A stretch of 64,000 nt of DNA from Isoetes taiwanensis (Eukaryota; Streptophyta; Lycopodiopsida; Isoetales; Isoetaceae), in assembly GCA_021234155.1 (NCBI GenBank), contig JAJEKV010000040.1, positions 312,001 to 376,000 on the forward strand, written 5' to 3'. Shown here one piece after another: positions 27,961 to 63,758 of the stretch (positions within the stretch are counted from its first letter, which is position 1; each line of letters opens with the position of its first letter). The position numbers and the translations under genes are program-made. Below the pieces are notes generated by a model. The model made no database searches. It worked only from the letters and a program-made list of their open reading frames with translations, and had not been told where the DNA came from.

Positions 27961-27979
27961 TTGTTATTAGTTATAAACC

Positions 27980-35640: not shown

Positions 35641-36205
35641 AAACCCCCACATAACAACCAACACATAACAACCATTGACATTAACAACCAACACATAACT
35701 ACCATTAACATTAATTAACACAACCATTGGGTCCAACACATTTTAAATTAAAATCCCCTTAAACCCCTTTGGTTTGGGTGCATAAAACCCTTTTTTGGGT
35801 GACGGTAGGCGGCGAGAGCCCTCATAATTGTATTTTGCACGCATGTATGAAATCAACACCATATAGTATTAGCTTTGAAATCTTATAGTATTTTGTGAAT
35901 CTTGTTATACAAAGTATAGCAAATTTTGTACTTGCATACCCCACAAGCGAGGAACTTTTCGCGTGCGGTGTAGATTAAGGAATAAGGGGTGAATATGCCT
36001 ATCCAAGATCTTTTGTTGTATGAGTATGTTTTGGTGTGAATATGCACCCAAACCAAAGGGGTTTCCGGGGATTTTAATTTAAATGTGTTGGACCCAATGG
36101 TTAATTAATTAATGTCAATGGTAGTTATGTGTTATTGTTAATGTCAATAATTGTTATGTGTTGGTTGTTATGTGGGGGTGAAGGCTTTATATGTTGGATG
36201 TTAAT
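35641..36205. mobile_element. MITE copy 2, abutting copy 1
   Basis: It begins AAACCCCCACATAACAACC directly where copy 1 ends and finishes TTATATGTTGGATGTTAATG at 36,205. Its left 22 bp are missing or shared with the right end of copy 1. Confidence 0.75.
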
Positions 36206-36223
36206 GGTTTTTTGTGTTGTGTG

Positions 36224-37226: not shown

Positions 37227-38560
37227 TAACATCCAAAGATATAAAAATTAAATCATCCAACACATAACAACCAACACATAACAACCATTGACATTAACAA
37301 CCAATTCTAGAATGGGACTCAAGAAACCAACAAACCGCCTAGATAGATAGGCTTCTCATTCATCTCAGCAGATTTTCTACAATGGTGGGGATGATGGGTA
37401 GCACACATCGCGAACTACCCACGAAAAATAAAGGGAAAATCCAATTATATCATTTGGACCCCAAAAAAATACAATGCTAATAGATGAGTGGGATGTATGC
37501 CGAAAGCTTAAAAACCCGCCCTTTCGGTTTGAGAGGAAAAACCCTAGTGATAAGCCCGACAAGGGGCTTAGACAAACGTAAGGCATAGAATCGCTCCCAA
37601 AACCCCGCATGGAGAAGTAGAAACGGATGCGGCTTCGCCAACCTGTACACGCACATCACCAACACAACAAACGAGAAAAATACGGAGAATAGCATCACCC
37701 AGTGGGTGGAAAAAAGCATCACCCGGTGGGTGGAAAAACATGATAAACAAAACTTGTACAAAATATAATAAACAAAGAAGGGGAGGGTGGGTTCAAAGAG
37801 AATAAGGTGCTCACGAGAGAAGAGGAAAGCGTAGATGAGATGGATGCTGAAACGCGCCAAATAGCGAACTCCCAACCAAAGCGGGCATGCGAAGCCACGC
37901 ATGCATGCATGACATGCATGCTTTCGTCCCATTCTAGAATGGCGATCCGATGTCGGATCGATGCGATTCTAGAATGGGACTCCGCAAGAAGAAACCAACA
38001 AACCCGGAGCTACCGGAGAACTTCCTTACAAACTAGGATCGAGGACGAAGGTCGCGGGGACGAGGCCAAAGGCCCGGTAAAGGATAGCATGAAAGAGACG
38101 CCTAATTGGCTAAACCAGGCAGGAAGAAGCCCCTCCCCTGCCTGGAAACAATTCAAAGAGAATAAGGTGAGAGCATATAAAAATTAAATCATCCAACATA
38201 TAACAACCAACACATAACAACCATTGACATTAACAACCAACTCATAACTACCATTGACATTAATTAACACAACCATTGGGTCCAACACATTTAAATTAAA
38301 ATCCCCCTTAAATCCCCTTTGGTTTGGGTGCATATTCACACGGGGGGTGACGTAGGGCAGCAAGAGCCCTCATAATTGTATTTTGCGAATCTTGTTATAC
38401 AGTATAGCAAATTCTGTACTTGCATACCCCACAAATGAGGAACTTTACGTACGGTGTAGATTAAGGAATAAGGGGTGAATATGCCTATCCAACGACTCGT
38501 TCTGAGTCACCCCCGTGTGAATATGCACCCAAACCAAAGGGGATTTAAGGGGATAGAGAC
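37227..38560. mobile_element. MITE copy 3, interrupted
   Basis: The left arm is at 37,227-37,303 (TAACATCCAAAGATATAAAA..., CATTGACATTAACAACCAA). The text resumes at about 38,178 (ATAAAAATTAAATCATCCAA) and ends near 38,560 after AAACCAAAGGGGATTTAAGG. The inserted 37,304-38,177 begins with TTCTAGAATGGGACTC, and that string recurs at 37,969. Confidence 0.65.
37304..38177. other. Insertion inside MITE copy 3
   Basis: It contains CCATTCTAGAATGGCGATC.. and GATTCTAGAATGGGACTCC (37,929-37,983), i.e. TTCTAGAA palindromes flanking a short segment, and a GCATGCATGC run related to 28,026. Open frames on both strands (minus 37,477-37,932; plus 37,807-38,187) show no family. Confidence 0.4.
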
Positions 38561-38629
38561 AGATCGAGGAGATAGATTTTTCAAACATCAAATTTCATCT
38601 AAAACAGACTCTTGGATGAAATGTTATTA

Positions 38630-38905
38630 CTAAATTTGTAATAGTGCTATTTTTTGACGATTTTTCTGACGTTAAATCTGACACCAAATCTGACGAAATT
38701 TCTGACACATTCTCTTACGCATTCTCTGACGCTTTTTGTGACGAAAAATCTGACGCTTTTGTGACGTTTTTTCTGACGAAAAATCTGACGCTTTTTCTGA
38801 CACTAAAATTCTGACGATTTATGTGATGCATAGCCCGAGAATGTTTTTGACGAATAATCTAATGAAATATCTGACGTAAAATCGTCAGGAAAAGCGTTAG
38901 AAAAA
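38630..38905. repeat. TCTGACG-type short tandem repeats
   Basis: TGACG (often TCTGACGCTTTTTGTGACG or TCTGACGAAAAA) recurs about every 10-20 bp. The orientation switches near 38,880 (CGTCAGAAAAA), so part of the block is self-complementary. Confidence 0.75.
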
Positions 38906-39214
38906 TAATCGTCAGAAAAATCATCAAATTAATCATCAGGCAAAAATCTCTATATATAAACCCGACGATTTTTTTGACAATTATTAGCCAAAGCCCCAAA
39001 ACTTCTCAAAAGCAAGATTCATAAGAAAGATTCATAATGCAAGGCGCCTTGGCATACCAGAACAAGCTAGGATACTCCTACGTCCTCTGATCTGTGCTGG
39101 GATGAGTGCATCTGATCTGTGCTGGGATGAGTGCATTCTATGAAGACGTAGCCAGCTTTGCATAAGAGAATAGCTTTGGCCGCCATGGACCATGGTCGCA
39201 AAATTCAAAAATGA

Positions 39215-39950
39215 AAAGGTCCTCTACGGTGGGAGTCTCCTCAATTCAATTTGCCATAATGAGAAAGAATCTCTTGAGAATACTCTAAATTCATAGATTC
39301 TCTAAGATTCTATCAAGGTCCTCTTAGAGGTTTCGTGAGCATTTCTCTAAATTTTATAAGATCCCCTCTAGATTCCATTAGGCTTCCCTAGATTCTCTAA
39401 GATTCTATGAAAATCCCCTTAGATTCCCTTAGATTCCTTTAGATTTTATGAGATTGCCCTAGGTTCCCTTACATTACATGAGATTCAAAGAGATTCTATA
39501 AAGATTCCCTTAGATACTCTAAGATTTCATCAACATTTTCTTAGATTCCCTTAGATTTTATGAAGATTCCTTTAGATTCCCCAGATTTTACGAGATTCCC
39601 TTAGGCTTGTAAATATTTTTCTAGATTCTCTTACATTTTATAAGATTTTCTTACATTCTATTAGATTCTTCTGGATTCCTTTACATTCTAGAACTTTTTA
39701 AAACATTCTAAGACTTTCTGGAACATTCTAAGACTTTCAATATATTCTAGAACTTTCTGGAAGTATTTCCCTAGATTTCCTTACATTCCCATAGATATTA
39801 GAACAATTTGGAACTTTCTGGAAGAATTTTCTTAGATCCCCCCTAGATTCTCTTATGTTTTAGAACTTTCTAGAAGATTCTAAAACTTTCTAGAGCCTTC
39901 CAGAACATTCTAGAACTTTCTTGAACTAGCTAGAATGTTATAGTTTATTT
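39215..39950. repeat. Degenerate minisatellite, unit about 20-30 bp
   Basis: Variants of CTTAGATTCCCTTAGATTCTATGAGATT run from 39,270 to about 39,700. They change into TCTAGAACTTTCTGGAACATTC units to 39,950. Confidence 0.8.
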
Positions 39951-39995
39951 TATCTTAATGGAATCATTACTCTTAAGTATGATTCCATTAAGATA
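39951..39995. repeat. 17-bp perfect hairpin before a tRNA-like relic
   Basis: TATCTTAATGGAATCAT at 39,951-39,967 pairs perfectly with 39,979-39,995 across an 11-base loop. It ends about 10 bp before the tRNA-like sequence. Confidence 0.85.
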
Positions 39996-40004
39996 GAATT
40001 AATG

Positions 40005-40072
40005 CTTGGTCTAGTGGTTAGAATGGGGGGTTGGAGGGTCAATGCCAGGGTTCGAATCCCCCACACAACATA
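40005..40072 (+). ncRNA. tRNA-derived relic
   Basis: Box A TGGTCTAGTGG (40,007) and box B GGTTCGAATCC (40,049) are both excellent polymerase III promoter matches at tRNA spacing, and the T-arm CAGGGTTCGAATCCCC is intact. The 5' end (GCTTGG) does not pair with the bases after the T-arm, so I do not call a functional tRNA. Most likely it is a SINE head. Confidence 0.6.
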
Positions 40073-40089
40073 AAAATTTTAAAAGTCTT

Positions 40090-40605
40090 TTCCTAAGGGA
40101 TGAGCATTCAACTTGGGCCGTAGGATCTTAGACCCGATCAAGGGTCGAGATCTCACCACGTGACAATAATTAAAGCAACATGAGCCATAGGATCTATTAT
40201 ATATAATTCCCAAAGTCATGTGCACCGTAGGATATGTGCCAAGCCACGTGAGCCGTAGGATCTCGGATCGACGATCATGATCGAATCAACTTAGACCGTA
40301 GGATCGATTACATATAATTCCCAAAGCCATGTGCAAGTAGGATGTGTCCCAAAGCAACATGAGCCGAGGGATCTCGACCGACGCATCGGGATCAAATCAA
40401 CCTGGACCGTAGGATCGCTTACATATAATCTACAAACAAACTCCCAAGCCATCTGGGCCGTAGGATACGTCCCAAAGCCACGTGAGCCGTAGGATCTCGG
40501 ATCAACAGTCGGATTGAGCGCGACAAACATTAGGATACGTCCCAAAGCCACGTGAGCCATAGGATCTCGGATCAACGGTCGGATTGAGCGCGACAAACAT
40601 AAGAA
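40090..40605. repeat. CCGTAGGATC-type tandem repeats
   Basis: Units such as CCCAAAGCCACGTGAGCCGT followed by AGGATCTCGGATCAACGGTC repeat through the block. The last two 67-bp units (40,466-40,532 and 40,533-40,599) are almost identical. Confidence 0.8.
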
Positions 40606-40619
40606 CATATATATGTTAT

Positions 40620-41335
40620 GATATGATAGAAAACCACAATTCTATAATGTTTTTCTAAAGATGCAATAACAAATCACAAATTACAAATTATAAAAGACAC
40701 CTAGGTACTTTCTCATGTATGGGTTTGCTTGATATTTGAATGGAGTCTGTCATGCTTCAAAAAAAGTAAAATTACAAAAGACTATATCTATATTGCTTTG
40801 ATAGTGGTTAATTATGACAATTGTTTTTTGGTTGCCTTATGAGTAACGACTTTGTATAGCCACATCCTTTTAGGTGATATTTATGAATAATAGTGAAACT
40901 ATACGACAAACAACAATCATTTTAAAACATATATTGTGATAATATGAAAACTAGCATAACTAACCACCATGGCATTTAAATTTGTATAGAAACCACGTCT
41001 TAAACTACTTCAACTTTGCGAGAATAGAAAATCAACATAAAGAACCATTGCCATATTTGAAGTGATGTTGAAAAACTATGCCATAAACCACTATCGATTT
41101 AATAAACCATGCCACATTAGAAAACCAACATGAGTGACCACCACTGATGCTAGAAACCATGTAACAAACCACTATCATTTTCAGTAAACCACGCTATACC
41201 AAAAAATCAACATAAATAACCACCTACTAGTCATAAAAACCATTATATTATGTGGCTTTTATTAAGAAAGATGTTTTTAGCATAAAAAACCACATCTATA
41301 GTGGTTTTTTTGGTGGTTTATTATGATGGTTAAAT
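40620..41335. repeat. Array of AAACCAC/AACCACCAT motifs
   Basis: More than a dozen short copies in one orientation lie directly beyond the 3' end of the transposase-like gene. They are complementary to the motif array at 27,550-27,960. Two related GTGGTT..TTATGA..TTTTTGGTTGCCTT stretches occur at 40,805 and 41,299. Confidence 0.5.
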
Positions 41336-41399
41336 TTTTGGTTGCCTTGTGCTGGGGCCAGTGTACATGACTCTGTCATCTTCATCTGAGCTAGCCAAT

Positions 41400-44300
41400 A
41401 TCTCTACTTGTTCCTCTTGATTCTCAACTTGCACAGGGAGAGTTTGTCTAGATGGCCAGTTGAATGTAACTGTTCTTCGACCTTGTAATGAAGCTTGCAA
41501 CATGTCACGTTGTCGAGAAAAAAACTGAGGCCACCATAAAGCATCTGCCTCCCCAAAGTGGTTGAAACACGGTGAATACTTGTCTCAATATAATCCAATG
41601 ATTTGTTTTGAGTCAAATGCTCTTCCCTCCTTTTTACTCTTTGTGATTTCTTTCAAGCTTTTTTTAGAGGCATTTATTCTGCAGAGAGCATGGAACTAGT
41701 ATTGGGGATGGTGCGAATGAATTGAATACTTACTGGCTGCTGCCGCTTTGCAAAGGATGTGGCATATTTCTTTCCTTGTAAGATGGCCTTGCCATCTTCA
41801 AAGTGAAATTTTGATCGATCTTTGAAATGTAATGTTTCTCAAGGGCTCAATAACGGTGACCCAGTTGATCTCTCAGAAAAATCCATTCTTTGAAATCATA
41901 AGTTTCTTCCAATAACTTCGATGTGCGGGCCGAGGATTGTAGGAATCTTGGATAACCTCAATCATTCTTTGGTAGGTGAGAGGTTTTTCGAGCAAGGCGT
42001 TTAGAGAACCTACTGAACATCGATCAATTTGATCGTAATGTATGACCAACAAGCGAGGAAACCAATCTTCACCTTCTTGAAGATTTGTTTCTCTACTAGC
42101 ATAACCTGCGATAAGCAAACAACGCTTGATTCTTATTTTCCCTTGTCTGTTGTCTATTTGAAGATATAGAACCAGGTGGTATATGTTCTAGATTGGAAAG
42201 AAGCTTATTCAATATTGTGATAGTGAGATTTGGATCAAGCATGAATGTTTGGATAATTCAAAAATGCCTTGCAAGATAGTTTTCCATTAAATACCATAGC
42301 ACCAACAACATGCGGATGTATGAAATCTTCTTGGCAAACATCCTTAGGCACATTGACAAAATGTGGTAGGGTGGTCTTCTTCGGGTCCATTCCATCAATA
42401 ACAACCGATATGTAGTTGAGTGGTTGTTCCGGTGCTTTCTTCCTATGAGGCGCCGAGGCTGCTTTCGGCGGATCGCGATTGATGGATGGCGTCCGAGCAG
42501 TGGCATTGAAGGATGAAGCTGTGTGTGTGCCTCGAGTGGATGTCTGCCAGCGATATATACGGGGGGTGATGGCCTTGGCGCAGGGGCTGGAGGATGGGTG
42601 AGGAGGCACCTCCAGATGGGCGATTTCCGAAGGCGGTTTTACGGCGCCGCCTTCCACCTGCGTAATCAAGGCGATTGGCGTTAGGGGCGTCTATTTTCCA
42701 AACACCGGTTGTGAAGAGGCTACGGTTTGGAACTGCTTGGTGAAGCCTTGTCTGGCGGAGGTATGAAGGTATGCTTGTTGCTTGTGCAGCGGCATGGATT
42801 TTTGGATCGGTGAGCGGCCATAGTCATCGGCAACGGTTTTTCCCCAAGTGGTTTTTAATCCGGGTCATGATGGTTGTGTTACGCCTCACGTTGTGCTTTG
42901 GTTTAAGGACCCGGCCCATGTGCTTGTTTGGACTTGGCCCAGGACTTGGTCCCATAACCCGATTGGGTTCCGTGGGCGTTAAAAATTTTTCCTTCCTTCC
43001 TTCCTTCCTATGTTTTGTCAATTTTCTCCTTTCCAAAGATTGTTGTTCTCTGTGCTTGTTCAATTTCTCCTTCAATGCATCTGAAATGAAAACGTGTTTA
43101 GGAAAGAACCTACTTTTAAGTAGAACTAGGCAAGAACACGTCCTAGAAGCTTACTTTTAGTGTGAAGTGTCCTTGCATTTTGTCTCTGAGCTTTTAATTC
43201 AGGAGCATGTAGCACAAACCGGACATCAGGTGCTTTCTAGGAATGGACACGAGAAAACTCTTTTTTCCGTGAGCCGCAGTGAAGTAAAAGTAGCGGACAT
43301 GGCGTTCTCCGACCTCAACACACATGTCCTTATAATTATCGTAGACTTCACGTTATTGAAGTTGTCACTCAAGTGGTACATGGGGAACATTGGGAGTTTC
43401 TCGCAAGACTCCTTAAAGGAACCTTCCATCCGGGAAACACATTGAAGGGCATGAATTGCGGATATACCTCACGGATGGATGGTAGTCATTAATGCACGGA
43501 TTCTTGTCAAGCCTTTTCTTCAAAGGTCAAAGTCGTCTCTGGCGCCTAAAGCATGAATCAATTTGAAGGCCGTTTAATGACGCCAGGCGTGGCCACCACC
43601 GTAAGTAAACTTCTCACCACAATGGACGGACTAATATTGAAGGCTAAGTAGCCCCTTTGGTCTAGCAGAGTCATTGAACTGTAACTATCACGAATCAACC
43701 TCAACTCCTTTAGTCCAATCTTAAGCAAACAACGTTGAGAACAACAATTGTGCTTTGTATGTGTTGCCCATAAAGTGAGCCTCGTCCATGAGTTTCTTTC
43801 TTCTAACGGTTGTACATGCTTTCTTGTGTAAGTTACGCTTAAGATTCTTACTTTGAGGGGCTTTGAATTGAACATGGAGTCTTGTGGCTTTGGTAGGTAG
43901 GAGACATCAACATGAGGTGTTTCTTCGTCACAAAGATCAACATGAGGTGTACTTGTAGATCTTTGAGAGGTTTGATGTGGGCAAGTCACGGGGGAGGTGC
44001 TTTCCCTCTCTGGGGAAAAATGTCGAGGTTGGTGGCGAAGTTGACCAGCTCCCGGGCGTCGTGAGAACCACGGGGAGTTTGCGTGTCGTTGGATGTACTC
44101 CCACTTGTTGTAGTACCGTTTAGCAAAATGGATGGAGTTGGTGTGATTTGCCTCGTGGAGGGAGCCTACTGATGGACTATAGGTGGCGTACTAAAATGAA
44201 CTGGAGTAGGTAGTCCTCGAGCTCTCTAGCCTGTGGTGGAGTAAAAACGCATTGATGGGGCAAACGACGTTCGGGGAGGAGGTGTGGTGGAGTAAATTGA

Positions 44301-44450: not shown

Positions 44451-44504
44451 AGGCTGCAGTTCTTTTCTCGAGCCATACTTTCGGTAAAAGTTAGCGTCAC
44501 CTTT

Positions 44505-44671
44505 GTATAAATTTATACCTACGAAGAAACGGCGGTATAAATTTATACTGAGAGATGGTATAAATTTATACAGGGAAGGAAACTCTTGGTGGCAGTATAA
44601 ATTTATACCGGAGATGGTATAAATTTATACGAGGGAGGGCAACATAGAACGAAACGGTATAAATTTATACC
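44505..44671. promoter_or_regulatory. Palindrome array 1 (6 copies) between the divergent genes
   Basis: GTATAAATTTATAC cores begin at 44,505, 44,535, 44,558, 44,595, 44,617 and 44,657. The full unit is GGTATAAATTTATACC, a perfect 16-bp palindrome. Intervals are 30, 23, 37, 22 and 40, so alternate copies stay in step with a ~30-bp period. The array lies upstream of both the minus transposase-like gene and the plus exon 1. Confidence 0.9.
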
Positions 44672-44814
44672 TAAAACTTCTGACACTTGTATTAGAAACT
44701 TTATGGAGAAACGCTATCCTAAATCCAAGGCACTTAGCAGAGGTACTTAAGCCCGCCAGCCCGGCCACCCTATTTTTCCATATCACGCGGCTCGGTCGAA
44801 GGCGCTTCCTTGGT

Positions 44815-44880
44815 GCGGCTTATATACCCTCCCTTATTTATAAGACGTCTATACGCCGAAGTCTATCTTGCCATGGCCAC
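44815..44880 (+). promoter_or_regulatory. Core promoter and exon 1 of the methyltransferase gene
   Basis: TTATATACCCTCCC (44,819) or TTATTTATAAG (44,834) can serve as a TATA element. The first exon is only ATGGCCAC (44,873-44,880), followed by a strong donor GTAAGT. The two trailing bases AC join with T at 53,427 to give ACT and continue as SGPRIKF, so the reading phase is preserved across the intron. Confidence 0.6.
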
Positions 44881-44948
44881 GTAAGTCTACTTCCGTCTTT
44901 GTTTAGTTTCTCTTTTGTTTTAATGCATTTAGAGTGGTGTTTCATACG

Positions 44949-45236
44949 GTATAAATTTATCGAGATGGCTCTGGATCGGTATATATTTATACATGCGTGC
45001 TCGGCGGTATAAATTTATCACGGATTCGAGCTACCTCGGTATAAATTTATCGCCAAAGTGTTCTATAAGCGGGTATAAATTTATACCATTCAGAACATAG
45101 CGGTATAAATTTATCTGGGGTGTGTGTTCTTGAACGGTATAAATTTATACCGCTTAACGGGCATTATAAATTTATAACCGATCGAGCCATCTCGGGTATA
45201 AATTTATACCGCCTTCTTCAGGAGTATAATTTATAC
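44949..45236. repeat. Palindrome array 2 (10 copies) in intron 1
   Basis: Cores begin at 44,949, 44,979, 45,007, 45,039, 45,073, 45,103, 45,137, 45,164, 45,196 and 45,224, giving intervals of 30, 28, 32, 34, 30, 34, 27, 32 and 28. Spacers (about 12-22 bp) are unrelated to one another. Four copies are shortened on the right (GGTATAAATTTATC), one reads GTATATATTTATAC, one ATTATAAATTTATAA, and one has lost an A. Confidence 0.92.
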
Positions 45237-46589
45237 CGTTTCAAAATTGTTTTGAATATAGAATAGAATAGAATACATTTATGTCCTTTGTGCGTAAGGC
45301 CCTCGGACTTATTGTAGCATGGGCGAAGCTCCCTACAAGGGGGTGCTACTAGCACATATCATTTGTTTTTAATGTAGCCTTTTCGAAGGTGACTTTTTCC
45401 TTTAATACCGCACACCCGCTTTACCTCGGCTTCTTGGCCGTGCGTTGATGCGTCGTTATCAATCGGCTTTTAGTCGAGCAATTTTGTGTGGGGCTATATG
45501 ACGTGTTATTAGAGATCATATTACAAGCCCTCTTTCAGCGTGTACCTCTGCGTTGCGGTCATCATTCTTTGGATCGCGATCCCCGGATCGTTCCGGTCGG
45601 TCATCGTCATCATCCCGTGGATTGGTTCCCCACTTTATATTTCTATATCGTCCCCGATGTCCCCATAGATGGCAGTCGTTAATCATATGGTTTTCATCCT
45701 CTATTCCCCCACGTCACATATTCGTGCATATCCTATCCTCCTTGTCTATCCCTCTCCATCACGTTTTTTTCGATTCTTAGGTCGTGGCTTCCCATCGAAT
45801 CGACCGGTATGTCCCTTATTTCTTCCCCAATATGTTATCCGGTACACACCGGTGTCCCATCTGTTGGTGCGGATTAAAACTTGCGCGAGCCGATCTGTCT
45901 TGGGTCTGTATTGTCTCTGCGACCATGCTCTCGTCGCTATGTGCGTCCAATCCTCATTTCCTTTGCTCTTCTTCTATCGGGTTACTTTCGGGTTTAGTCC
46001 CATCTTTCACGGTCCATGTTTGCCACCTCTACGAACCATCCGATTGCCTTCAAGGATGTGTGACTTTGCTGATTCGGTGATTGCAATCTTTGGACGTTTC
46101 CCTTGATGTCTCAGCGTTGTCTCGGGCGGCGGTATCTTATGGTTCTCTCCCATGCTCTCACTTCCATTGGCCTTTGCCCCGTTTTCGAGGACCATAATTG
46201 TCGGTGGGCGTGTTTGTCCTTACCCTGAATTCTGCGTGCCATTGTCTAAAAATTCCTTCCCGCTTTCCGGGTTCTTTAAGTTAAGCTGGCCCCATGCTTA
46301 CCTTTCCGTTATGGCGGGTGTGGTGGCTACGGCTGCACTAAATAGGTAGCATTTGATGTCCCAATCGGTTATTCGACTTACATTCGAAGTTTTTCATGTT
46401 AAAGTAACTTCCTATAGCTGATTGGAATCTGGCGTTAGCTCCTTTGGCCCACTTCCGTGCCATGTGCATCATAACCTAGATATCTGTACAGATGTTGTTT
46501 CCTCTATCTCCTTCTCTTTATATCTCGAAAGGTTTATGCCTGTTCGTGTCCAAAGATTACTATCTTTGTTTTTGCTAGGTTCCTTTGTT

Positions 46590-47255
46590 AGCCCTGTATC
46601 TTCACAAAATTGTTCCGTGATTTTGAGCAATCGTGCATTCCTTTTTTTTTGTTGCCATCATACCAAGATCGCCCGCGATATAGCATTATTGGTACCTTAG
46701 TGTCTCGATTAGTAGGGGGCATACTCGCCCCTTGTTGATCGTTATGTATCCCCGTAGTGCATCTATGTATATTCCAAAGCGGGGTTAGGGATAATCGGGC
46801 ATCCACGCTTTCACACTGTGGTCACATATTATCTAATATCCTTCCCCTGTTCCATCTTTGCATACACCTTGTGGTACGGTCTTCGCGTCGATCCTACCAT
46901 GCTTCTCGGCCTTTGCATATCCATTAGTCTTTTTAGCGGCTTCTTCTCTCGGGATCGTGTCAAACGCTTTCCGGAATCTACAAAGCGTGATTATTTTTCT
47001 TTCCATGCGCTTTTTGTTCTCGCTTTTATTAGTATCCAGAAGGGTCACGAGATGATCGTGGTTGAGTGCTGGGTGCGAACCGCCTTGCCTTTTGTGCTCT
47101 CACATTTCCTTCCTCTCGCCCATTTCTTTTTAGTTTTGTTATCCGGTACCTTTCCAAACCATTTTAAGCGAAAATCGCTTACCATTATAGCCCTATAGTT
47201 CTGGATCTTTTTATTCCCCGCCTTATGTAGGGTATGACTCAGTTGTATGTCCATC
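46590..47255 (-). pseudogene. LINE reverse transcriptase domain
   Basis: NYRAIMVSDFRLKWFGKV (about 47,150-47,200) matches the NYRPI.L....K...K motif. FRKAFDTIPRE (about 46,940-46,975) carries the first catalytic Asp. SLTPLWNIHRC (46,750) corresponds to the LSP.LFN segment. The YADD box is broken by a frame change (LYRGRSWYDGN in one frame, AGDLGMMA in another, 46,665-46,700). Confidence 0.85.
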
Positions 47256-48199
47256 CGCGGGGAGCCCCGGTATGTATGATCTTGGATTAAAATGTCGTTA
47301 CATGCAGCTTATTTACGTCTCGGGCATTTCACCGATTCCGCGGTCGGTCGGTATAAATCTGGTGCTTTGTGATTAGCCATTTTGTTTAGGGCTAACATTA
47401 CTTCAACATATTGAGCATAGTACATGTCCGGGGTCATCTTTGTGAGTATTGGTTGCCGGTGCGCCCGTCTTGTATAATTTGTCGGATATGTCTCCCATCC
47501 CTCGGTTCAATGTCATCTTGTTAGTCCCTTGCTTTTACATTGCTACCCCTCCTTTGTTTTGAATCCTTTTCACCGGGGCGGGGTTGTTTTCCTCGGCCAG
47601 TTTTCCATGTACCATTGAATTAAGTTGTAGCGGGATTATCATTATCTTTTCTTCTTTAGTAACCTTAAGTATCGCCTTCTCTTTCGGTATGTCTCCCTCC
47701 TTATGCTTTCTCAATTTCCTCTTGTGTTCTCTTGCACTTTCGTCATCGCATACCATCTTAAGACTCTGAGATGCCGGATTCTTCCTAATTTTGATCCTTC
47801 TCCCAAACACATACATGCGCCGCTACCCTTATCATTATGTCATTGAGGGTATTCCCCATTGTATCAATTGCATTGTGTTCCCCCGGTCCCATTTTTCCCA
47901 TTTCATCCTTGATCATTTATCAGGTAAAGGGTTACCGATACCTTTCCGGAATTGAATTCTTACCATCTTTGTTATTCTTCTTTATTTGCATTGCCATCTT
48001 TTTGTGGCGTCTCATCCAATCTAAATGTTAGTTTGATCGGTCTATGGCTTTTCCTTTTCGATCGGCCATTCGTAGCATTAGCCCTTCTACCTTTTCTGGC
48101 CGCTTGGTCGGCTCAAAATTATATAATCCGCTATGCTCTCTTACCATGTGAGTTTTGGCTCGTAAAACCTCGGATCCCCTCCATCTTTTTGTGCCATTA

Positions 48200-48843
48200 G
48201 CTATGAGATCACCCTCGTTGCGTCGCGGACTTCCGACAATAAGCTCACCTAAGCGTTGATACCGACCTTATCTTACGTATCCCTACGCCATTCACCGTGT
48301 CCTCGCGTGTATTAACTATCGACCATCATTTTTCTCATCGCATGCGTAATTTGTGCTTGTTCGCAACCGTTTCGGCATTTAGATCTCCTACTATAATCAT
48401 TGGTCCTTGTCCCTTCCATTTCGTTATGTTTTCTCCCGGTTCTAACAATTCGGCTTATCATTTGTTTGGCGGGTAATATGCAATTATCGGAACTACCTCT
48501 TGTTTATTTTTCAATTGAATATTCAAAACCATATATCTTTTATTGATATCCTCAATATAACATACATGCATTGTGAGCCGCACTATTCTTTATATAACAA
48601 GCCGCCCGCACTCCCCTCTCCCTTTCTTGAAATCCTGTCTTTCCAACATAAACGGTGGTACCCTTCCTCCTCAGAGAGAGGTAGCCTTTTGGTGTCCCAT
48701 GTCTCCGCCAAACATGTTATGTCACATATTGTAATACGTGGGCACCTTCCATCTTTCTCCATCATCCCATGGGTACCCGAAGCGGTTCGATTACCATGAT
48801 GCCGTGATCTTTTTCCCGAAGATTTGCTCCTTCCGGTCTCCAT
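48200..48843 (-). pseudogene. LINE AP-endonuclease domain
   Basis: CLAETW (around 48,705), then GYHRLCW, then GGLLYKE (48,583) match the first endonuclease motifs. IAYYPPNK, then GPMIIVGDLNAET (around 48,360-48,470) match the central motif with the catalytic Asp and Asn. VNTREDTVN follows. Stops separate the parts. Confidence 0.85.
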
Positions 48844-51800
48844 GTTTTAGTGCCATTCCCCATTCTCCTTGGCCTCCCCACGGTTCTCATTAGCCGAGGG
48901 GTTGGCCCTTGACCCTACGATTTGTTGGCTCTTAGTTTCCCGTTTGGCTTCCTCCTATTATTGCTCGCATTGCGGCTCCCTTCTCGTGATTGCTCTTAGT
49001 GCCTCTCTCGCATTCGTTCTCTTGCATCTCTTGCATGTTGTATGGATTTCCGCGAGATGTGAATTTTCCTTCTCGCGGGTTGGTTTTGCACCCCTGCGGC
49101 CCTTAGTGCTCCTGCGGTTGAGTCCCTTGTTCTCTCCACCCTTTTTACATTGTAATATACCTTGCCATTCTTGACCCACCTTTGTATCCTGCTTGGTTCA
49201 GTTCCACGGCTGGCCAATTCCACTGTGTAGCCCTATGCATGCTGTTAGTGCCTCACGTACTTTGATTCCATTCGCGATGCGGATCCCATCATCTCTCCTT
49301 GGTTGCTAATCCCTCACGTCGGGTTTATGTGCCTCGATCTCCCCCTCCGCTGGGACGGAGGGCTTTGACGATAGCGTTCATGTTCCTTGAACACCGCCTC
49401 TATCACTTCAGCACGGTCATATATATCCTCATTGGCCTCTCTCGCTATCCCACCAGCTTCCAACATCATGTTTAATCTTATTCGCTCCTCATATTCCAAT
49501 AAATGTGGTTTTATCCTATCATATGAATCCCATGCATCCAGCTCAACATTTGATTTCTCCTAATTCAACCAACCTTTTGCGGGATCTTTGCTTTCTCCTC
49601 TTCGATTCGGCCCATTCTCGCCTGCATTTCCTCGCTCATCTTCTCCACCCTCCTACTCCTCCACGCCCATGCTAGTGATGGCTGCTTGTTGCTGTTACAA
49701 GTCTCGCCAATGCGTTGAGTGCATCCGTTCGGATCTTTTGCCTCAGTCGGATCCATTTGTGCCAAAAGTCCCTAAGGTCTTGTTATTCACCGGGGGCCTT
49801 TTCCGCCTCCAATCTCCTCTCCGCTGGCCAAGTTGATGCTATCGGCCATCGCCCTCGTTTGCAAGAGAATCCTGCGAGAAAGACTCTAAGCAAGGCGTTT
49901 CGTATAGACTCTTGCTTTGGAGTAACCGTCGTTTCCCTAAGACTATATATATTTGTCAGCTTCTAAACGGTATTTTTATTGGCGATACGTTTGATTTGAA
50001 TTTCAAATTTTAAAATTCAAAATTCAAAAGGCCCTAATTAGTTTCGGCGTCGTCCCTTTTATTGTCACTTTCGGTTTTTCGTCTGCTGTGCCCAAGGTTG
50101 ATCCTCTCTGTTTCGAAGTCCGAGTGGTTGGTTAGATGCTTGTCTGCATTGATTGGCTTAGTATTTTTGTGGTTTCGTTCTCCTCAGATTGCATGTATGT
50201 ATCGCTCATTTGTGCCAGGTTTCGCGCTCCTTAGTCTGTGGTGGGTGGTAAACCCCTTGTCCATACTTTTCCCGAATCCCCGTGCCGGCGGTTTAGCCAT
50301 CCTTCCGGGGCATTCTTCATACATATATTGTACCGATTAGTTTTATTGAGTTTTTAGTGGTCCTGTTAGCCAGGGTCTTGCCCGCTAGCTAGGGGTGTAT
50401 GCAGGGAGGCTTGACCTCAGCGGGTCTGCATCTTTGTTCCCCGGCCCACCTTTACTCGCTGTGTTGCCATACATCGATGAATGAGGTATTCTTCATACCC
50501 CACAGGCAAAGTCATATGCCGCCTCCATGTTGATGAGTTTATGGTGGTCCCGTTACCGGGCGAGTTGGTGGGTTAGCCCTCGCTATCCACGGTGGGCGCG
50601 GAGGCATAGCCTCTTCGCCGTAATCTTGCCCCCGTCAGCCTTTTACTCGAAATCATTTTGTTCTCTCAAGGCGCCAAGGTGTCCTTTTTCATCGATCCCT
50701 CCGCTTGTATCTTTAGGTGGCTTATTATCCCGCAAATTATTCTTGTTCCTTTCTATCCCTCAATTCATACGCCACCCATTATTTTGTATTTTCCCCTTAC
50801 CTTTGAGTGTTTTCGTCATCCTTCTTCTTAATATCTTTCCCTGATATCTCACAACCTCGATGCATCCTTGACGCCATCTATATATTATACTTTTACATAC
50901 TTTACATCTGACCTTCCATACCCCTTTATTATATTACTATACTTATTATTATTATATTTCTATAGTTCTCGCCTCCCGCTGTAGGTCCATGTCCCGGGTC
51001 TGGGGTCGTTACCACCTTTACTCACATGTCCTCTTTGTCTTCAATCGTGTTTCAACCCGCTTTATATGCTTCTTCATGACGGTTAGCTAAATTGTTGTGT
51101 ATCATCCAATATGTTCTTTCGTGGTCCCTCAAGTTCGAGATTGGGCATTCGTTTACATTTGTTATCTCGCTAGTTTAACTACCTCATATTAGTTCACGAA
51201 ATACGCTTATGTTGTGTGTCTCTTTTGCTTTAGGGAAAGAATAACCGATAACAAAGATAAAGTTACTTATGGTATCATCCCGATTTTATATTTATTGGAA
51301 AAGTCTACATTAAGACGGTAGAGTTCTTTCTCTCACGCACCATTGTTTGTCTTTTTTCAGCCATTCTTACAAAAATTTTTCATGCGGATTATACAAACAA
51401 TCATTTGTTTCCTTCCGTATCATCTAAAAGTCGATGTCGTCCCCGAACTTTCAACCCGAGTCGCTGGAACAAAGGGTCGTTTTTGAACGACAATGAAAAC
51501 AGAAAACGTGAAAAAGCGAGAAACGAGAAGTTGAAGAGGGCAAACGTGTATAGAAGATAAAAGGATAAACGCCGTAAGATAAAAAGAGAAAAGTAAGAGA
51601 AGGAAGGAGGAAAGAAAAACAAAAGGAGAGCATGGCTTGCCAATGCTCTGGGTCCTCCCTTATTTTCATACTTATCCGATTTCTTCCCCGCCCATAACTA
51701 ATGCTTTAGCTTCTTGTCCTCGATGGTTCCCCTCGATCTTTTTTAACTTTTTCGAGATTCCTCCCCATATCGCTCGGACATAAGAAATCGACCTGATTCT

Positions 51801-53823
51801 TCTCCGCCAGCAGGGGGCACTGCACCTTGCCAAATCACACACCGGAAGATTTTGTCTTTGGTAGCTCGACGACCTTTTTGTATGGCGGGCGTGTGAACTT
51901 AGTCTATTGAAGCATTGCATTGTGCTATCTATGTCTTGGCGCCCACCTGATCGCTTTTTGTCGCTTAAAACTCCTCGAAAGTACTTCAAAGCAACCCTAG
52001 AGTATACCGCTATCCCGCATGGATCTGACATGATGGATTGTCAGCATTGCAGGGCGATCTACCGCTAGCCGAGCGATGAAGGCAAGCCCCCTCGCCAGCA
52101 CATACAACCGAAAAGCAGATACACCGCCCACGTTGAGCTCCTCCACCCGGATTGAATGGCACCGCAGTTTCACGGGTGCCGGAGTTGGGGACGCTTTTGC
52201 CAATTTTGCTCCCCCATCTACCTTCACGAACCTTTTTCCCCTTATCCATATTTGCTTCGATCCATGTGGCATTGCTAGACTTGTTGGCTTCTTGCCCGTA
52301 CGGTTTCAGCAAGCTCGGATTAGGGCTCAAGTTTACGGAGAGACTAATTTCTAAATTTAAAAAGGGCGCCTTCACTATCACTCTTCTCCTCGTTATCACC
52401 GTTATATATATAGGGTTTTGGATATTTAGTTTTATTAAATGCGATTTCAGCCCTCTTTTCCAAATTTCGTAGATGCCTTTAAATACCGCTGGGCCTTGTC
52501 CTATCCTGTCCAAGATTTCACTGGCACTTCCGCCGCACATCCTGGCCCTATACCACGACATGTGTACCTTCCCTATTCTCTCTATACTACTCATTATTAT
52601 GGCTATCTCAGAATGTCTTGATCATTTCTACCCCGTTGCGTTGGTTTTCGACCCTCCTCTCCGAGTGCCCGTGCCCCTATTCTTTACTATTTATTTCCTC
52701 GCCCGCGTGCCTATTCTTTGCGTTCGCCCGTCTCGATGTTATTCTCCGCTTTGCCACGTTTTGCCCTCGTTTGTTTCTAAATTCATTAATTAATTTTTCA
52801 TTTTTTTGATTTATTTTATTCTATGAATATTCTTGTTTCTCAACGGCTCGAGATTTTGAATCATCGTCGCCGAACCTTCGAAGCTCCTCTTCCGGTGTCC
52901 TCCCAGTATTCTCTGTTTTGCAATTGTTTGTCGTTAAGTTACCATTCCTTTATCTACCTTGAATTCCAATTTATAGCAACGACCATTCTAGTCTAATAGT
53001 GTTGTGTCATGCTCATGCACCGATTTCTATCTGTTTCTCTTTCGTCCAGATCAATCATACAGTTGAATACTACATAGTTTTATAATTTATTTCATAAACG
53101 GTATGAACATAGTATATTTCGACTATTTTGAGAAGCTAATGTAAGAAATCGGGGAGAGATGGGAGATATGTACTTTGGATATATAGTTGGTCCGCCGTCG
53201 TCAAGCTCCCAGGCCGCTCCCAGCCGCCTCCCTACAGCTCTAGAATATGGACCTGAACCTTAATATTTTAGTAATATTGTTGTGTTTTAAGCTTAAATAA
53301 GACAAAAGAAGTGTTAATTTATTGTGGATTTAATGCCCTTTTAGCCCTCGCTTTTATTTTTTTTGTGTGTCAAAAAGTCGAAAAAATATTCATTTCTTAC
53401 GAAAAAATGGGTTTTTTAACGCACAGTTCCGGCCCAAGGATAAAATTTGTACACAAAGGCCAATCTTCAAAGGCTGCACCAATAGAGCCACAGACGTACG
53501 AACTAAAAGACCAGACGTGGTACGTCCACAGGGGCGCAAGAGAGAGCAAACCAACCGAGGAAAGGCATTGCCTGTACTTGTGCCATCGGTCGTGGAAGGG
53601 CAAGTACAAGGTCGATGATTATTATTATCCCGGACAAATTATAAACCCGATTTACTTAAAACGAAGATGAAATTTTAATGAAGTGCATGCATGACAAAGG
53701 GGAAGTCTTCTATGTTCTTAATAGTAAAATGCTTAGATTAAGCATGTGCAAGCCCAAAGACGTGCATGACTACATATCTGAAAATTACAAGGGCGGCTAT
53801 GTAAGTTATTCTTAGTGGCTTAC

Positions 53824-53837
53824 GTATAAATTTATAC
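53824..53837. repeat. Single palindrome copy in intron 2
   Basis: GTATAAATTTATACC lies 23 bp after the donor at 53,801 and about 40 bp before the acceptor GATATAG at 53,877. Confidence 0.9.
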
Positions 53838-54880
53838 CGTCATCCTCCTAACTTAACCCCCGCATTACATGATATAGTGGACATTTTGATGTCGATTGGT
53901 GCTTCTTGAAAGAAAAGGTGTTGGTCAAAGGTCTGTGGTACCCCACTCCTAACGATGAGGAAGAAAGGGATGAGGAAGTAGAAGAAGAAGAGGAAGAGGA
54001 GGAAATAGAAATACCAAAGGGAAAGGGTAGGAAGCATTCCCCTCGGTAGTAGATACCTGGGCTCCCAAAAAAAAGGTCTAGAACCACAAAGTCATTGACT
54101 ATAGAGGAGTCGCCAGGCAAGCACCGAAGGCTCCTAGTGCAGATATTGTTGTGAAGCCCACAGATAAATCAAGTGCTATTCTTAAGCGGGTGAATGAAAC
54201 TAAACTGCTTAAGCAAACTATATCTTTGACATTGAGCACTATTAAGAGGCCACCTAAAAATGAAGATGGGGTCAGAGTGCTACAGTGTCGGAAGTCGTAT
54301 GCACATGTGGCTATAATCAAAACAAAGAATGAGAAGGAATCCTCATGCCCATGTGTCCCCACTAGTTGTTATGGTGGGACGTGAGTCGGTGCAACCAACT
54401 AAAAGATTACAAGAAGGCTGACTGAAGATTACACATACTACGTTCTTGGTGGCAATACATAGTTACAAGGCAAGGAAAGAACTAGCAAAGGAAGAAAGCC
54501 CGAATTAAGTGTGGAAAGAGCGTGGAAGCGACATCTACGATGGGTGTAACGGATGAAGAAGCAAAAGTCATTGCCGTGAGTCATAATCTCGACAATGACT
54601 TTAGATTGAAAATGAGTTTGATAGACAAGATCCGTTTCATGCACCGTTCCAAGTGCATGGAGAGGATTTTAAAAAGCAAAAGAACAAGCTACAAGAGCTT
54701 CGAGAAGCCCCTGCGCGATGAAGTGTTTGCCCCCGCAGTTATGACTCGATAAGAAGCCCATTATGGCAGTAAAACAATACGATAACTACTTTTTTCCAAG
54801 ATTTAGAGATGGTCAAATTGAGTAAATGCTTTCTTTCTATCTTTGTAGTATGTTTACGTGGTGGTTAGTAGTAACTAGTC

Positions 54881-54946
54881 GTATAAATTTATACCGCGCC
54901 CGGCCAGATAAATTTATACCGCGCCCGTGTAGGTATAAATTTATAC
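54881..54946. repeat. Palindrome array 3 (3 copies), intronic
   Basis: Cores at 54,881, 54,907 and 54,933, with intervals of 26 and 26. The middle copy is shortened on the left (GATAAATTTATACC). Each is followed by CCGCG. The array lies between coding-like FFPRFRDGQIE (54,790-54,822) and an acceptor-like TTTTAG (54,972). Confidence 0.9.
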
Positions 54947-56017
54947 CGCGTTCTGCCGCGCGTAGTTTTAGTCGCAAATGTCCTTTCTCTTACGCCAATC
55001 AACACTAAACACTCCCCCGACCATTTTGGTGTGGGATCTTCAAGAGAGGATTTTTGTATGTTCGAGGATGGTGAGCTTAAAGAACAAGCTGGCGCAAGCA
55101 GAAAGAAACCAAAAAGGTGGTGAATCAAAACAAAAATATGAGCATTGTACCGGACGGTGATTACGTGGTCTCAAAAAGCAAAGAAATATTTGTTCGCCGT
55201 TGGAAAAAGTAGTTGCCAAAGAATTCACATTAGGCGAGATGGCTAAGGAAATTTAAGACGTAAGCCCCACTTGCTATGCCGTGTTCTTTTCATCTTTTTT
55301 GTCTTACAATACTTTTCCCTTTGCAAAATGAAAGATATTGTCACCCCGCCAGGCCGAACTAATGAAGCGACTCAACTTAGAGGACTGGAGGAGTGCAAGC
55401 TTTTGTACCCAAGTTGCACCACGATAGTATTATCGAGAGCATTTGTTAACTTCAAGTGGTCGGGTAGGTTTTGCGTAAAATATGTTCTGCGGTTTGTGCC
55501 TTTGTCTCACATTATTCTTACGGAACAAGAAGAAGGGGCTACCAACCGATTTTTAAACATGGTTTAGGTAGGGCCAAGGAGGAGAGGCAAAGGCTTAAGG
55601 CACTTTTGAACGGGGGTAAAGAGGTCGCCACCTCCGTTTTGACACTACTTACCAGGTGAGATTTACTACATTTGGTCGACGCGTCAGATACGGGTTGTTG
55701 GTGGTGACCGTGGGCCGGGACTCTTTTTAGAGAAACAAAAACTTTACATTATGCATTGCGATATTCCTTATGGCTTCAAAATCAAGGATAGCACTTTTGA
55801 CGAGGAGGCTTTTACTCACGTGCAAGTCCGTTCTTTCTTGGATGGCCTAAAAGAAGTCAACGACATCGAAAACGGAGGGTCATCATTTTTCATTCGACCG
55901 ACTGCCAGACGATGCCGATTACTTAAAAGCCATTGGGAGTCATGCAGAACTTGCCGGGAAAACTAGCGTATGGTAAGCTTTAAATTTCTTGCTTTTCTAT
56001 TTACTTTAACACCGGCA

Positions 56018-56146
56018 GATAAATTTATACCCCGATTAAGCCTCGTGGTATAAATTTATACAAACAAGGCAAACTCGTATAAATTTATCGGCATGGCACC
56101 GTGGTATAAGTTTATCTGAAAAAGGCAATGGTGGTATAAATTTATC
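56018..56146. repeat. Palindrome array 4 (5 copies), intronic
   Basis: Cores at 56,018, 56,048, 56,077, 56,104 and 56,134, with intervals of 30, 29, 27 and 30. The donor GTAAGC lies at 55,971 and methyltransferase coding text resumes at about 56,218. One copy is left-shortened, three right-shortened, and one carries G in the core (GTATAAGTTTATC). Confidence 0.92.
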
Positions 56147-56899
56147 ACGCCACACCATTTAACTAACTTATTTTGTTAGTTTTCTTTCTACCAATGTTTA
56201 ATTGCTTTTTGTTTGGCGGGGCTAAAAACAAATGTCAAAGGACATGGTGGTGGTCCGCTTAGTAAAGCCGCTTTGAACATTTCCATATTGGTTTTACACG
56301 GCGGACACCAAAAACCATGGTTCATTTTAACACTTGAGAATGAAAAGACTCCACCACGCAGCGCCTTTCGGTTCAAACCGTTCTACAAAAATTGAGAGAC
56401 CCACAACGACAAAAAGGACGTGGTATCTCATTATCAAAAGCCGCCACGGCTGACTAATTAATAATTTAATTCGGTGTGGTTTTCGCCGAGACCGGATTCG
56501 GATGCATTTTTGGGGCTCGGGCACCATTACGCCAGTTCGCTTAAAAAAGGGCGCAATGTTGTCTCCGTCGACATAGACCGGGGACAAAATAAGTTTCATC
56601 GGACCGGGATAAGCTCTTGTGAATCCTTTTCGGATGAAAACGAGGAACTGGGAGCAAAAAGCGGTCTTTGGCGATGTGAAAGGCACATATACGAAGAAAT
56701 CCAAACCTCCACTTACGGGAAGAAGAGATGAGGGAGGTGGAGTTTGTCGATCTGGAGCCTGTGATGCCCCCGAGGCAGAAAGCGGCCTCTACGGGTACCG
56801 TGACCATTGGAATCGGGGGCGTCTCTGCTGTTAAAACCCGCAAGAGACAGATCCTAAGGGGGAACGAGAGTCCCGTGGACTGGGAAGACCCATCTTTAG

Positions 56900-56913
56900 G
56901 TATAAATTTATAC
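56900..56913. repeat. Last palindrome copy at a splice-donor position
   Basis: GTATAAATTTATAC follows CATCTTTAG directly after the last recognisable coding text (DWEDPSL). The GT of the palindrome can itself be the intron donor. Confidence 0.8.
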
Positions 56914-57353
56914 GCATGCAATTTTAAATTAACTTTCATTGTAATCTGTGCGCTAAGAATTTCAATATATTTTGATGAAGATTTTTCAACTGAAAGCTTT
57001 GTCTCTTTAACAATGCTTAATTAGAACAATTCTTTCTTGATTTATGATTTCACACTCTTTCTCTTTTCTATGTTTGATTTTCTTAGTACTTATATTAAGC
57101 TTGCAAAAAGACAAACTATATTTCCTTCTATTTTCAACAACAAATACTTAATGAGTTTTCAAATTTAATGTCTCCCTCCTCAAAACAAGCTTTTTTTTTT
57201 TTGCCCTCTTTTAAAAATGAAAAGGCTTCAAAAATGTTGCTTTTTTGGGGGTATTTTGAATGCTATTTGCTCAACCATCTATTTTGCTCCCTATTTTGTC
57301 CGTTTTTTTCAAGTTTTCAATTTTTATAAAGGAATCTTTCAAACGCACTTCTT
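56914..57353. other. Right arm of the transposon, AT-rich, no gene
   Basis: Long T and A runs, no conserved frame. Some text near 57,290-57,350 mirrors the left arm (AAAGGAATCTTTCAAACGCA). Confidence 0.6.
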
Positions 57354-57383
57354 AAATAAGTGCGTTTCATTTTAAACCTTGTT
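57354..57383 (-). repeat. Right terminal inverted repeat of the giant transposon
   Basis: This is the inverse complement of 26,534-26,563. The adjoining inner sequence (57,329-57,353) carries CAAACGCACTT again, so the right end can fold on itself (AACGCACTTCTTAAATAAGTGCGTT). Confidence 0.75.
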
Positions 57384-57390
57384 GGAGGAG

Positions 57391-62103: not shown

Positions 62104-63758
62104 TTATTCAAACAATAGCTGCTTATCTTCTCTGTCTATTGTGGCATTTTGAAATGCATCTATGAATTGATACTCATCTGCTAAGGCAGCATCTAGAGTT
62201 GTATTTGTGCTAATGAAGCCATCCTCAGTTAGTGCAAGTTCAGAACTGGTAGCAACATGCCTGCTTTTATCAACTAATTCCATAAACTGCCTCTGGTCTG
62301 AACCTTTTGGAATAATTACACAATGCCTTAATCCTTCGCAAGAGACCATTTCTGCAATTCTTTTGCTTCCTGCTTGACTTGTTTCGGGGTTGAAGTCAAG
62401 GGACAAATCTTTTTCTTTGTCAGGTTGGTTATCTGGAGCCAAATAATTCAGTTTTTCATCGGTTAGTTGTTCCTCTAAAGCAATATCTTGTGTAGTACCA
62501 ACTGTGCATTGCTTCTGATCCCTTGGTATTTCCATAGATTGCTGCGAGATGGAAGTTAAAGAGGTAGGCATTGAAGGAAGACTATTTTCCACACCAATGG
62601 CTGGCAAGATGGCCAAACACAACTTCCCCTCATAAGGTATAATAGCAAGATTCTGTGCAATTAGAGTGACTGGTAGCAATGACTTGTGCTCTGCAATAGT
62701 TGCATTTGATGCATGCCGATGGGTATTCAGGTCATCTGCGATAGTATTTTGACAATTATGTGTGTCCAGCAATGTTTCACTTGCATCGTCATTCTCTAAA
62801 GTTTCTAGGTCGACAGGGCCGGGAGCAAGTGCCAGATCCACTTCCTTATCTGCATCAATTGCGGCTACAGAAATGTCCAGCTTAGAAGGGATAGAAGCAC
62901 CATATCTATGTTCATTTTGGTTTGCACCCGGTGTGAATGAGACCTGGACCGGATATTTTCTCCCATCTGGATCGCTGAAGACTGTCTTCGTTACCAGTGA
63001 GGAGAGAGACAAACAATATCGGGCATCTGCAGACTCAGACTGCCAGCGTGATCTGGATGACCCCACATCTTCCACAAAATCAGAATACAGGTATAGCAGA
63101 AGAACTTGTAGATGTGTACAAACCCTGTTTAAGTTGTTTTTGCGAGTTCCAGAATATAGGAAGTGAAATATCCACCATTCTATAGCCATGCAACACCTAA
63201 AACATGATCATCAATATCGGGTTAAAATGTCAAGCTTCATGATGACTGAAGAAAGGATATCTTCATACCTACTGCAAGTTCGATCAGACATGGTGCTATG
63301 GATAATGGCATAAGCAATAAGAAGAGCATAAAAGATCTGCTTAAAATTGTTGTGGTCACTTGATAACGTCTTCCCAATTTCTTGAAGTTGATCACTTATA
63401 GCATTAGCTCGTTTCCTAATCTCTTCCCATAATAATTCATTATAGGTGTCTTCTTCTAACCTAGCTTGCTGCCAGATTGCTATAGATAACATGATTGAGA
63501 GAGCCAACCAAGAAATATCTTCACATTTTGCACGAATCTCTTCAGACAAGGTAATGGCGAACTTTGAAACATAGGCATTGCCCAATCCTTGCAGATTCTA
63601 CATTAGAAAATAAAATGTGTGAAATTTTCGTTTCTGAATCTATGCGGGAGAAATAGAAGAACCTGATATAGGGAATCTAGCTGAGAAGAGTAGCTGTGAA
63701 TGACGGCTTCAAAATTTGTGAAGGCATCACTAGGAACGCCTTGTGGCTCTTCATCCAT
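62104..63758 (-). CDS. Unrecognised plant gene, at least three exons, 5' end uncertain
   Basis: On the minus strand, exons at 63,663-63,760, 63,269-63,597 and 62,104-63,196 join in phase with GT..AG introns. They give 505 residues from the ATG at 63,758 (MDEEPQGVPSDAFTNFEAVI). The N-terminal third is helical and charged (ARLEEDTYNELLWEEIRKRA) with a hydrophobic stretch (YALLIAYAIIHS). Then come CMAIEWWIFHFLYSG and LQVLLLYLYSDFVEDVG. The C-terminal two thirds are acidic, Ser/Thr-rich and probably disordered, ending DREDKQLLFE. The exon begins TC ATG after an acceptor-like GTTTAG, so an upstream exon beyond or near the window edge is possible. I do not recognise the family. The intact frames and clean splicing mark it as a real host gene. 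Confidence 0.75.

Follow-up and report, generated by a model that had tools for sequence, protein, structure and literature searches.

In the VANC/VANDAL system of Arabidopsis, which belongs to Mutator-like transposons, arrays of short, family-specific motifs are described in introns, intergenic DNA and terminal non-coding DNA (PMC5735166, PMC10398659). Related VANDAL families are reported to use different motifs, and the targets to evolve by tandem repeat formation (PMC5735166). In bacteria, the ParB relative VirB is described to counter silencing (PMC10653881). Here we analyze a 64-kb stretch of the Isoetes taiwanensis genome (contig JAJEKV010000040.1, positions 312,001 to 376,000; hereafter the window, in whose numbering all positions are given unless a contig is named), in which a DNA transposon carries arrays of a short palindrome in and beside a DNA methyltransferase gene. 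The palindromes are very likely cis elements of this transposon, and a protein of the element probably binds them as putative sites. By analogy with VANC and VANDAL, we put at about 0.5 the probability that the arrays would serve sequence-specific marking or protection by a dimeric protein encoded by the element.

The pattern GTATAAATTTATAC has 12,556 exact occurrences in the genome (1,658,258,908 bases on 1,110 contigs searched), versus 17 for the reversed pattern used as control. By hand count, 47 of the 50 distinct places listed, all on the first contigs, have a neighbor within 110 bp, so the genome-wide count and clustering that the initial annotation had proposed as a check both support arrays. 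An even genomic spread without arrays is rejected on the same places. Within the window there are 26 copies, 25 ungapped and one with a deletion, located at 44504-45238, 53823-53838, 54880-54947, 56016-56148 and 56899-56914. Scanning with the 16-mer at up to 3 mismatches gave 23 matches compared with a mean of 0.46 in 100 shuffles, and the 10-mer ATAAATTTAT gave 23 compared with 0.23 by chance; all fall inside 44504-56914 and 44507-56911, respectively. Combined, the two scans yield 24 copies, to which a further script added the substituted copy at 56105 and the copy at 45224 with one base deleted. A 12-mer scan at 2 mismatches gave 12 extra isolated matches scattered over the window, which are taken as chance. 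The number of copies and their absence elsewhere in the window, both claimed initially, are thereby confirmed. The motif is also real as a 16-bp palindrome, but perfection is the exception: among the ungapped copies the exact 16-mer is found in 5 of 25, the 14-mer in 14, the 12-mer in 15 and the inner 10-mer in 23. Nine of the 25 are lopsided, with a GATAAATTTATACC type replacing the full palindrome, and GGTATAAATTTAT is present on one strand in 21. The 12-bp core contains no C or G and therefore cannot be touched by host 5-methylcytosine marking. A search of Rfam gave no match.

That the arrays lie within a plant transposon that also carries a methyltransferase gene, as first annotated, is borne out by both element ends and gene remnants. 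With nested insertions the element spans 30,850 bp (26534-57383), and about 9 kb without them. Its left terminal inverted repeat (TIR), AACAAAGTTTAAAATGAAACGCACTTATTT at 26534-26563 on the plus strand, matches the right end (57354-57383, minus strand) at 96.7% in inverted orientation, and a target-site duplication, GGAG, is directly repeated outside both ends at 26530-26533 and 57384-57387. Both ends match relatives. For comparison, eight regions chosen for holding the motif were fetched (C1, C2, C4, C5, C7, C8, C9 and C13, with C7 and C9 holding one exact copy each), and seven of these motif-chosen regions have a TIR-like end resembling 57354-57383, the exception being C4. Two are short relatives with both ends, of 2.2 kb (C2) and 3.4 kb (C8), flanked by the duplications AAAT and TTGA, such that a 4-bp duplication is found in all three copies with both ends seen. 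These short copies carry internally placed arrays, and show no match to the gene parts of the window, to the methyltransferase relative P0001 or to the transposase-like exon. Just inside the right end, an imperfect hairpin (AAACGCACTT...AAGTGCGTTT, 57341-57367) is seen, as also in C2, C7 and C9.

The element contains two divergent genes. One is transposase-like; the other encodes a DNA methyltransferase of the beta class (N6/N4) and includes a ParB-like region with weak support. Array 1, with 6 palindromes (44504-44671), lies upstream of the methyltransferase gene and adjoins the divergent transposase-like gene. The methyltransferase gene, on the plus strand, begins with a short exon read by eye, ATGGCCAC followed by the donor GTAAGT (44873-44880), of which both start and donor are identical in C4 and C13. 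Intron 1 holds array 2 (44948-45238), with 10 palindromes of which the last lacks one base; the array in its entirety is an imperfect inverted repeat. Exon 2 (53429-53806) encodes the N-terminal region in a frame that runs on from exon 1; it is frameshifted in the window and conserved in C4 and C13. A single palindrome (53823-53838) occupies the short putative intron 2, followed by exon 3 with the ParB-like region (54139-54791; 77.5% to C4, with weak ParB-like profile matches in relatives), and intron 3 has an array of 3 palindromes between exon anchors (54880-54947). Exons 4 to 6 extend over 55028-55966 up to methyltransferase motif IV (CDIPYGF, 55760). An array of 5 palindromes (56016-56148) follows between exon anchors in intron 6, a number assigned by comparison with C4 and the second-type locus L035 (see below). 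Exon 7 (56201-56662), with stops and frameshifts, contains the beta-class motif I (DAFLGLG) and is supported by tblastn with P0001-P0003 (E 7e-12 to 4e-17). The last single palindrome (56899-56914) is near the 3' end of the gene. Introns were numbered by eye.

P0001 was the sole match for the methyltransferase piece, and searching with it gave two further relatives; it aligns to 56266-56662 in two frames with stops (E 4e-17). The beta-class methyltransferase family PF01555 is matched by P0001 (6e-16) and by L036, another second-type locus (2.8e-17), and the exon of the window itself is too decayed for a Pfam match. Motif IV precedes motif I in both, as ADLPYGF then DAFSGSG in L036 and CDIPYGF then DAFLGLG in the window. 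In enzymes of this kind, DPPY marks the adenine type and SPPY the cytosine type. By this general rule, motif IV, which reads DLPY in relatives and DIPY in the window, is nearer the adenine type than the cytosine type. A protein search with the whole gene gave no match, and scans of a viral collection with P0001 and with a motif pair gave nothing useful. Relatives of the methyltransferase form a large and in part intact family, with 150 scored matches among 3,059 candidates in the genome for P0001, the 12 best being without stops. The ParB-like exon reads VLGGNHSFKARRQL in relatives, and no helix-turn-helix family was found in the Pfam scans. The transposase-like gene, on the minus strand, runs leftward from the shared promoter region (42295-43897, extent approximate) and is decayed, with tblastn remnants at 43897-43361 and 42453-42295. 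The queries were an open 428-aa exon of a relative, which matched at E 1e-19, and the exon following it, which matched at E 4e-23 with 72% identity. A Pfam scan of the 428-aa exon gave no family above the cut-off; DUF7869 is a tentative name for it.

A sister subfamily carries a second palindrome, TGTATTCCGGAATACA, with 3,392 exact occurrences in the genome compared with 0 for its control. Four loci of the P0001 type belong to it, two of them 5.5 kb long and the others shorter pieces (1.9 and 1.8 kb). All four carry TATTC(C/T)(A/G)GAATA or TATTCGAATA, in 9, 9, 2 and 9 copies, and none carries the first motif even when one mismatch is allowed in the 12-bp core. Conversely, the window, seven of the eight first-motif regions and the first-type gene of C4 are free of the second motif. 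Both palindromes share the design GTAT-N6-ATAC; L037, with 2 copies, is without the full form, and L038 has a CCAG/CTGG variant rather than CCGG. Copies are placed between exon anchors or upstream of the gene in the window, C4, L035, L036 and L038. Judged by these anchors, first-type copies occupy introns 1, 3 and 6, with one in intron 2, and second-type copies introns 1, 3, 4 and 6; no motif is found in intron 4 of the window or C4. Some second-type palindromes are longer than those of the first type, reaching 28-36 bp without mismatch (L035 1354-1383 and 3657-3684; L036, minus strand, 1835-1870). A fragment at C4:13400-16460 (L017 3400-6460), beside the first-type element, contains a second-type methyltransferase gene start, an array of the second palindrome and a divergent, open 428-aa transposase-like exon.

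The spacing of the palindromes was initially read as regular and phased, suggesting cooperative dimeric binding on one face of the DNA. Regularity is seen in the window (coefficient of variation 0.09 for array 2), and phasing emerges from the relatives, which favor multiples of 10.5 bp, as a dimer binding on one face would predict. Among the places listed, steps of up to 110 bp between copies of the first motif (n=38) give an R of 0.61 at 10.5 bp with a phase of -0.1 bp, and the same test for the second motif (n=22) gives an R of 0.70 with a phase of -0.2; contigs without a usable step (C7 and C9 for the first motif; C17, C18 and C35 for the second) are left out of these counts. A period of 10.5 bp alone gives a phase close to 0; 10.0 and 11.0 bp do not. 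In the fetched regions, copies with up to 1 mismatch give 57 steps with an R of 0.65 and peaks at 20-22, 30-33, 40-43, 50-52 and 61-65 bp, together with off-phase steps of 25, 28-29, 35 and 56 bp. The use of 2, 3 and 4 turns (21, 32 and 42 bp) by the arrays is a better argument for phase than the p-values.

The spacers, initially described as unique and non-conserved, look so in the window, where mean pairwise similarity is no better than in shuffles (26 of 200 reach it) and a few residual matches remain, the best pair being inverted. In the better-kept C4 copy, however, the spacers of intron 1 are homologous units in both orientations, one kind with 3 forward and 2 reverse units and another with 2 forward and 1 reverse. 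Among the 78 spacer pairs of this intron, 6 direct and 11 inverted pairs reach p<0.01. C5 has 5 direct and 0 inverted of 15 pairs, and C1, C2 and C7 have no pairs at p<0.01. C13 and the window each have 3 inverted pairs of 28 at this level, C8 has 1 of 15, and the two smaller C4 arrays also contain such pairs. The spacers of the window therefore look decayed rather than unrelated from the start, and cores have been kept while these spacers decayed. The low decay of the core is by itself not proof of selection, as an A/T-only core without C is not hit by C deamination.

To explain these observations, we propose that a protein encoded by the element, with the ParB-like methyltransferase as the likeliest candidate, would bind one face of each array as a dimer. 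The bound protein might then mark or protect its own family, and the short copies depending on it, from host silencing. Arrays would grow by tandem and inverted duplication, and since an identical palindrome flanks each spacer on either side, inversion of a spacer would presumably leave the sites unharmed. The thousands of palindromes and the different motif of the sister family suggest, in analogy to VANDAL, self-recognition against host silencing. The parts of this proposal differ in strength. The prediction of the methyltransferase as the binder has an even chance, and escape from silencing is a more tentative outcome. A detailed version, in which the ParB-like methyltransferase would load as a clamp at the arrays, slide and write N6-methyladenine (6mA) or N4-methylcytosine (4mC) that keeps the element active, with a subfamily-specific central hexamer in the GTAT...ATAC frame, is improbable as it stands.

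Several observations weigh against this proposal. The transposase-like protein could equally be the binder, and the methyltransferase gene of the window is broken. The ParB-like profile matches are weak (E range 0.0016-0.05: PHROG 0.0016 and 0.0094, NCBIfam ParB 0.048, with 2 of 4 members matched in each case), an unrelated Pfam model outscores ParB in 1 of 4 members (0.00024), and a PDB sequence search with the ParB-like region gave unrelated matches only. Regarding phase, the window copy alone shows no helical phasing (all Rayleigh p > 0.4), which is where the initial reading of its spacing fails, and periods of 10.0 and 11.0 bp give R values almost equal to that at 10.5 bp (0.47 and 0.58 for the first motif, 0.66 and 0.56 for the second). 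Since tandem duplication copies steps, those within an array are not independent, which makes the phasing p-values too low. Both motifs occur in the C4 region, as portions of two elements are found side by side in it; its 4 second-motif copies are in the second-type fragment described above. Nine of the 10 gene-body copies fall outside conserved blocks, but this test is biased, since the blocks were built with the motif masked. The gene loci compared are 3 of the first type (window, C4 and C13) and 4 of the second, two of them short pieces; element ends are known for the first type only, and array and ends have been demonstrated in one element for the window, C2 and C8.

The main competitor of protein marking, though clearly less likely, is an ordinary minisatellite on an abundant transposon, grown by slippage and inverted duplication, with a core that is merely slow to mutate. 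The homologous spacers in C4, the direct repeats in C5 and the tandem steps all fit such an origin, as does the base composition of the core, which methylated-C deamination spares. The two palindromes, however, share both their design and their location in introns 1, 3 and 6, and array steps vary yet favor the 10.5-bp phase, with cores kept next to decayed window spacers. The initial annotation had offered two alternatives, cooperative binding or a minisatellite under selection for the palindrome only, and each is partly borne out: growth of the arrays is minisatellite-like, and conservation is stronger in the palindrome than in the spacers. The homologous spacers that it named as evidence against its reading occur in C4 and C5, and not in the window overall. 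Somewhat less probable still are sites for a transposase or an accessory transposition protein, which, like the TnpA sites of En/Spm, would act in mobility rather than in escape from silencing. Short copies with both ends keep their arrays, and the transposase-like gene is divergent beside array 1, as expected for such sites; most copies, however, are internal, upstream of or in the methyltransferase gene and, in the long copy, kilobases away from its left end, and the arrays are internal in the short copies too.

Alternatively, intron transcripts might form long hairpins feeding small-RNA or recombination pathways, such that the arrays would act as structured RNA or DNA. Array 2 is a long inverted repeat exceeding what motifs alone give, as its folding energy of -123 kcal/mol (z -12.2) is better than that of any of the 100 controls of either motif-kept type, and the inverted spacers in C4 point in the same direction. 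The arrays at 44504-44671, 54880-54948 and 56016-56150, in contrast, fold no better than controls (96, 78 and 17 of 100 spacer-shuffled controls, and 99, 64 and 45 of 100 spacer-permuted controls, respectively, fold as well), and array 1 lies upstream of the gene, so we regard this explanation as unlikely. Most doubtful is that the palindromes are host factor sites or TATA-box decoys. The core TATAAATTTATA does hold TATAAAT readable on each strand, but the sister palindrome is without such a box and has a similar layout.

The difference between the full length of the window element and its size of about 9 kb comes from nested DNA. In the left part, insertions of about 13.8 kb occupy 27519-41353 (borders approximate), as the flanking stretches 26836-27518 and 41354-42447 lie almost next to each other in C13, which they match at 88-91%. 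Intron 1 is interrupted by a degraded LINE-like insertion of about 8 kb on the minus strand (45260-53400, borders approximate), with endonuclease and reverse-transcriptase traces that are both below the Pfam cut-off (E 0.027 and 0.066); it is strongly purine-rich on one strand and absent from the collinear C4 copy. As the left end in C13 is close to the equivalent of 41354, and C4 is without the LINE-like insertion, the window element is a transposon of about 9 kb broken by roughly 13.8 kb and 8 kb of nested DNA. Within the left insertions, a cluster of repeated and inverted units at 34069-38554, also present in C1, C5, C8 and C9, resembles nested short transposons, and a tandem-repeat block at 39264-40624 is related to sequences in C2, C5 and C7. 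Outside the element, a 361-aa open reading frame on the minus strand (62104-63189) has no Pfam match.

If protein marking at the arrays is true, transposon self-recognition would have arisen a second time, outside Mutator elements and flowering plants, and would operate via palindromes with a 10.5-bp preference and a DNA methyltransferase of bacterial type. This would also be a plant case where a transposon-encoded enzyme may write 6mA or 4mC. Two palindromes and two protein subfamilies in one genome, with thousands of natural sites, provide a direct test, and the spacers in both orientations would form a natural archive of how site symmetry may allow inversion.

A literature search for the motif, and for a plant transposon with such a methyltransferase, gave nothing on this element in the search summaries. 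The likeness to CRISPR arrays is one of appearance only and was rejected, as the spacers are repeated, occur in both orientations and lie in a plant nuclear transposon; no search aimed at Cas genes was part of this comparison. In En/Spm elements, repeated short subterminal sites are bound by the element protein TnpA, with ties to methylation, and the elements have CACTA ends and 3-bp duplications. The present element instead has AACAA ends, the 4-bp duplications GGAG, AAAT and TTGA, and internal arrays. Its methyltransferase resembles the beta-class N6/N4 enzymes (PF01555) in having motif IV before motif I, and, unlike them, is encoded by an intron-bearing gene that a plant transposon carries, with a ParB-like region attached. 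In bacteria, the parS site is palindromic and 16 bp long, and ParB-methyltransferase fusions occur in phages. The candidate ParB-like region and the 16-bp palindromic sites recall ParB/parS; unlike that system, the element is a eukaryotic transposon with dozens of sites, a fused methyltransferase, no helix-turn-helix match in the Pfam scans and weak ParB support. Compared with VANC/VANDAL, the element differs in its palindromes with helical preference, in its spacers in both orientations and in its transposon type (4-bp duplication and AACAA ends), and instead of VANC a ParB-like DNA methyltransferase is the candidate protein; the VANC-type domain DUF1985 had no Pfam match in the pieces scanned, those of the window being decayed. 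What the element has in common with VANC/VANDAL is the placement of arrays in non-coding parts, a motif that differs between subfamilies and growth by tandem duplication.

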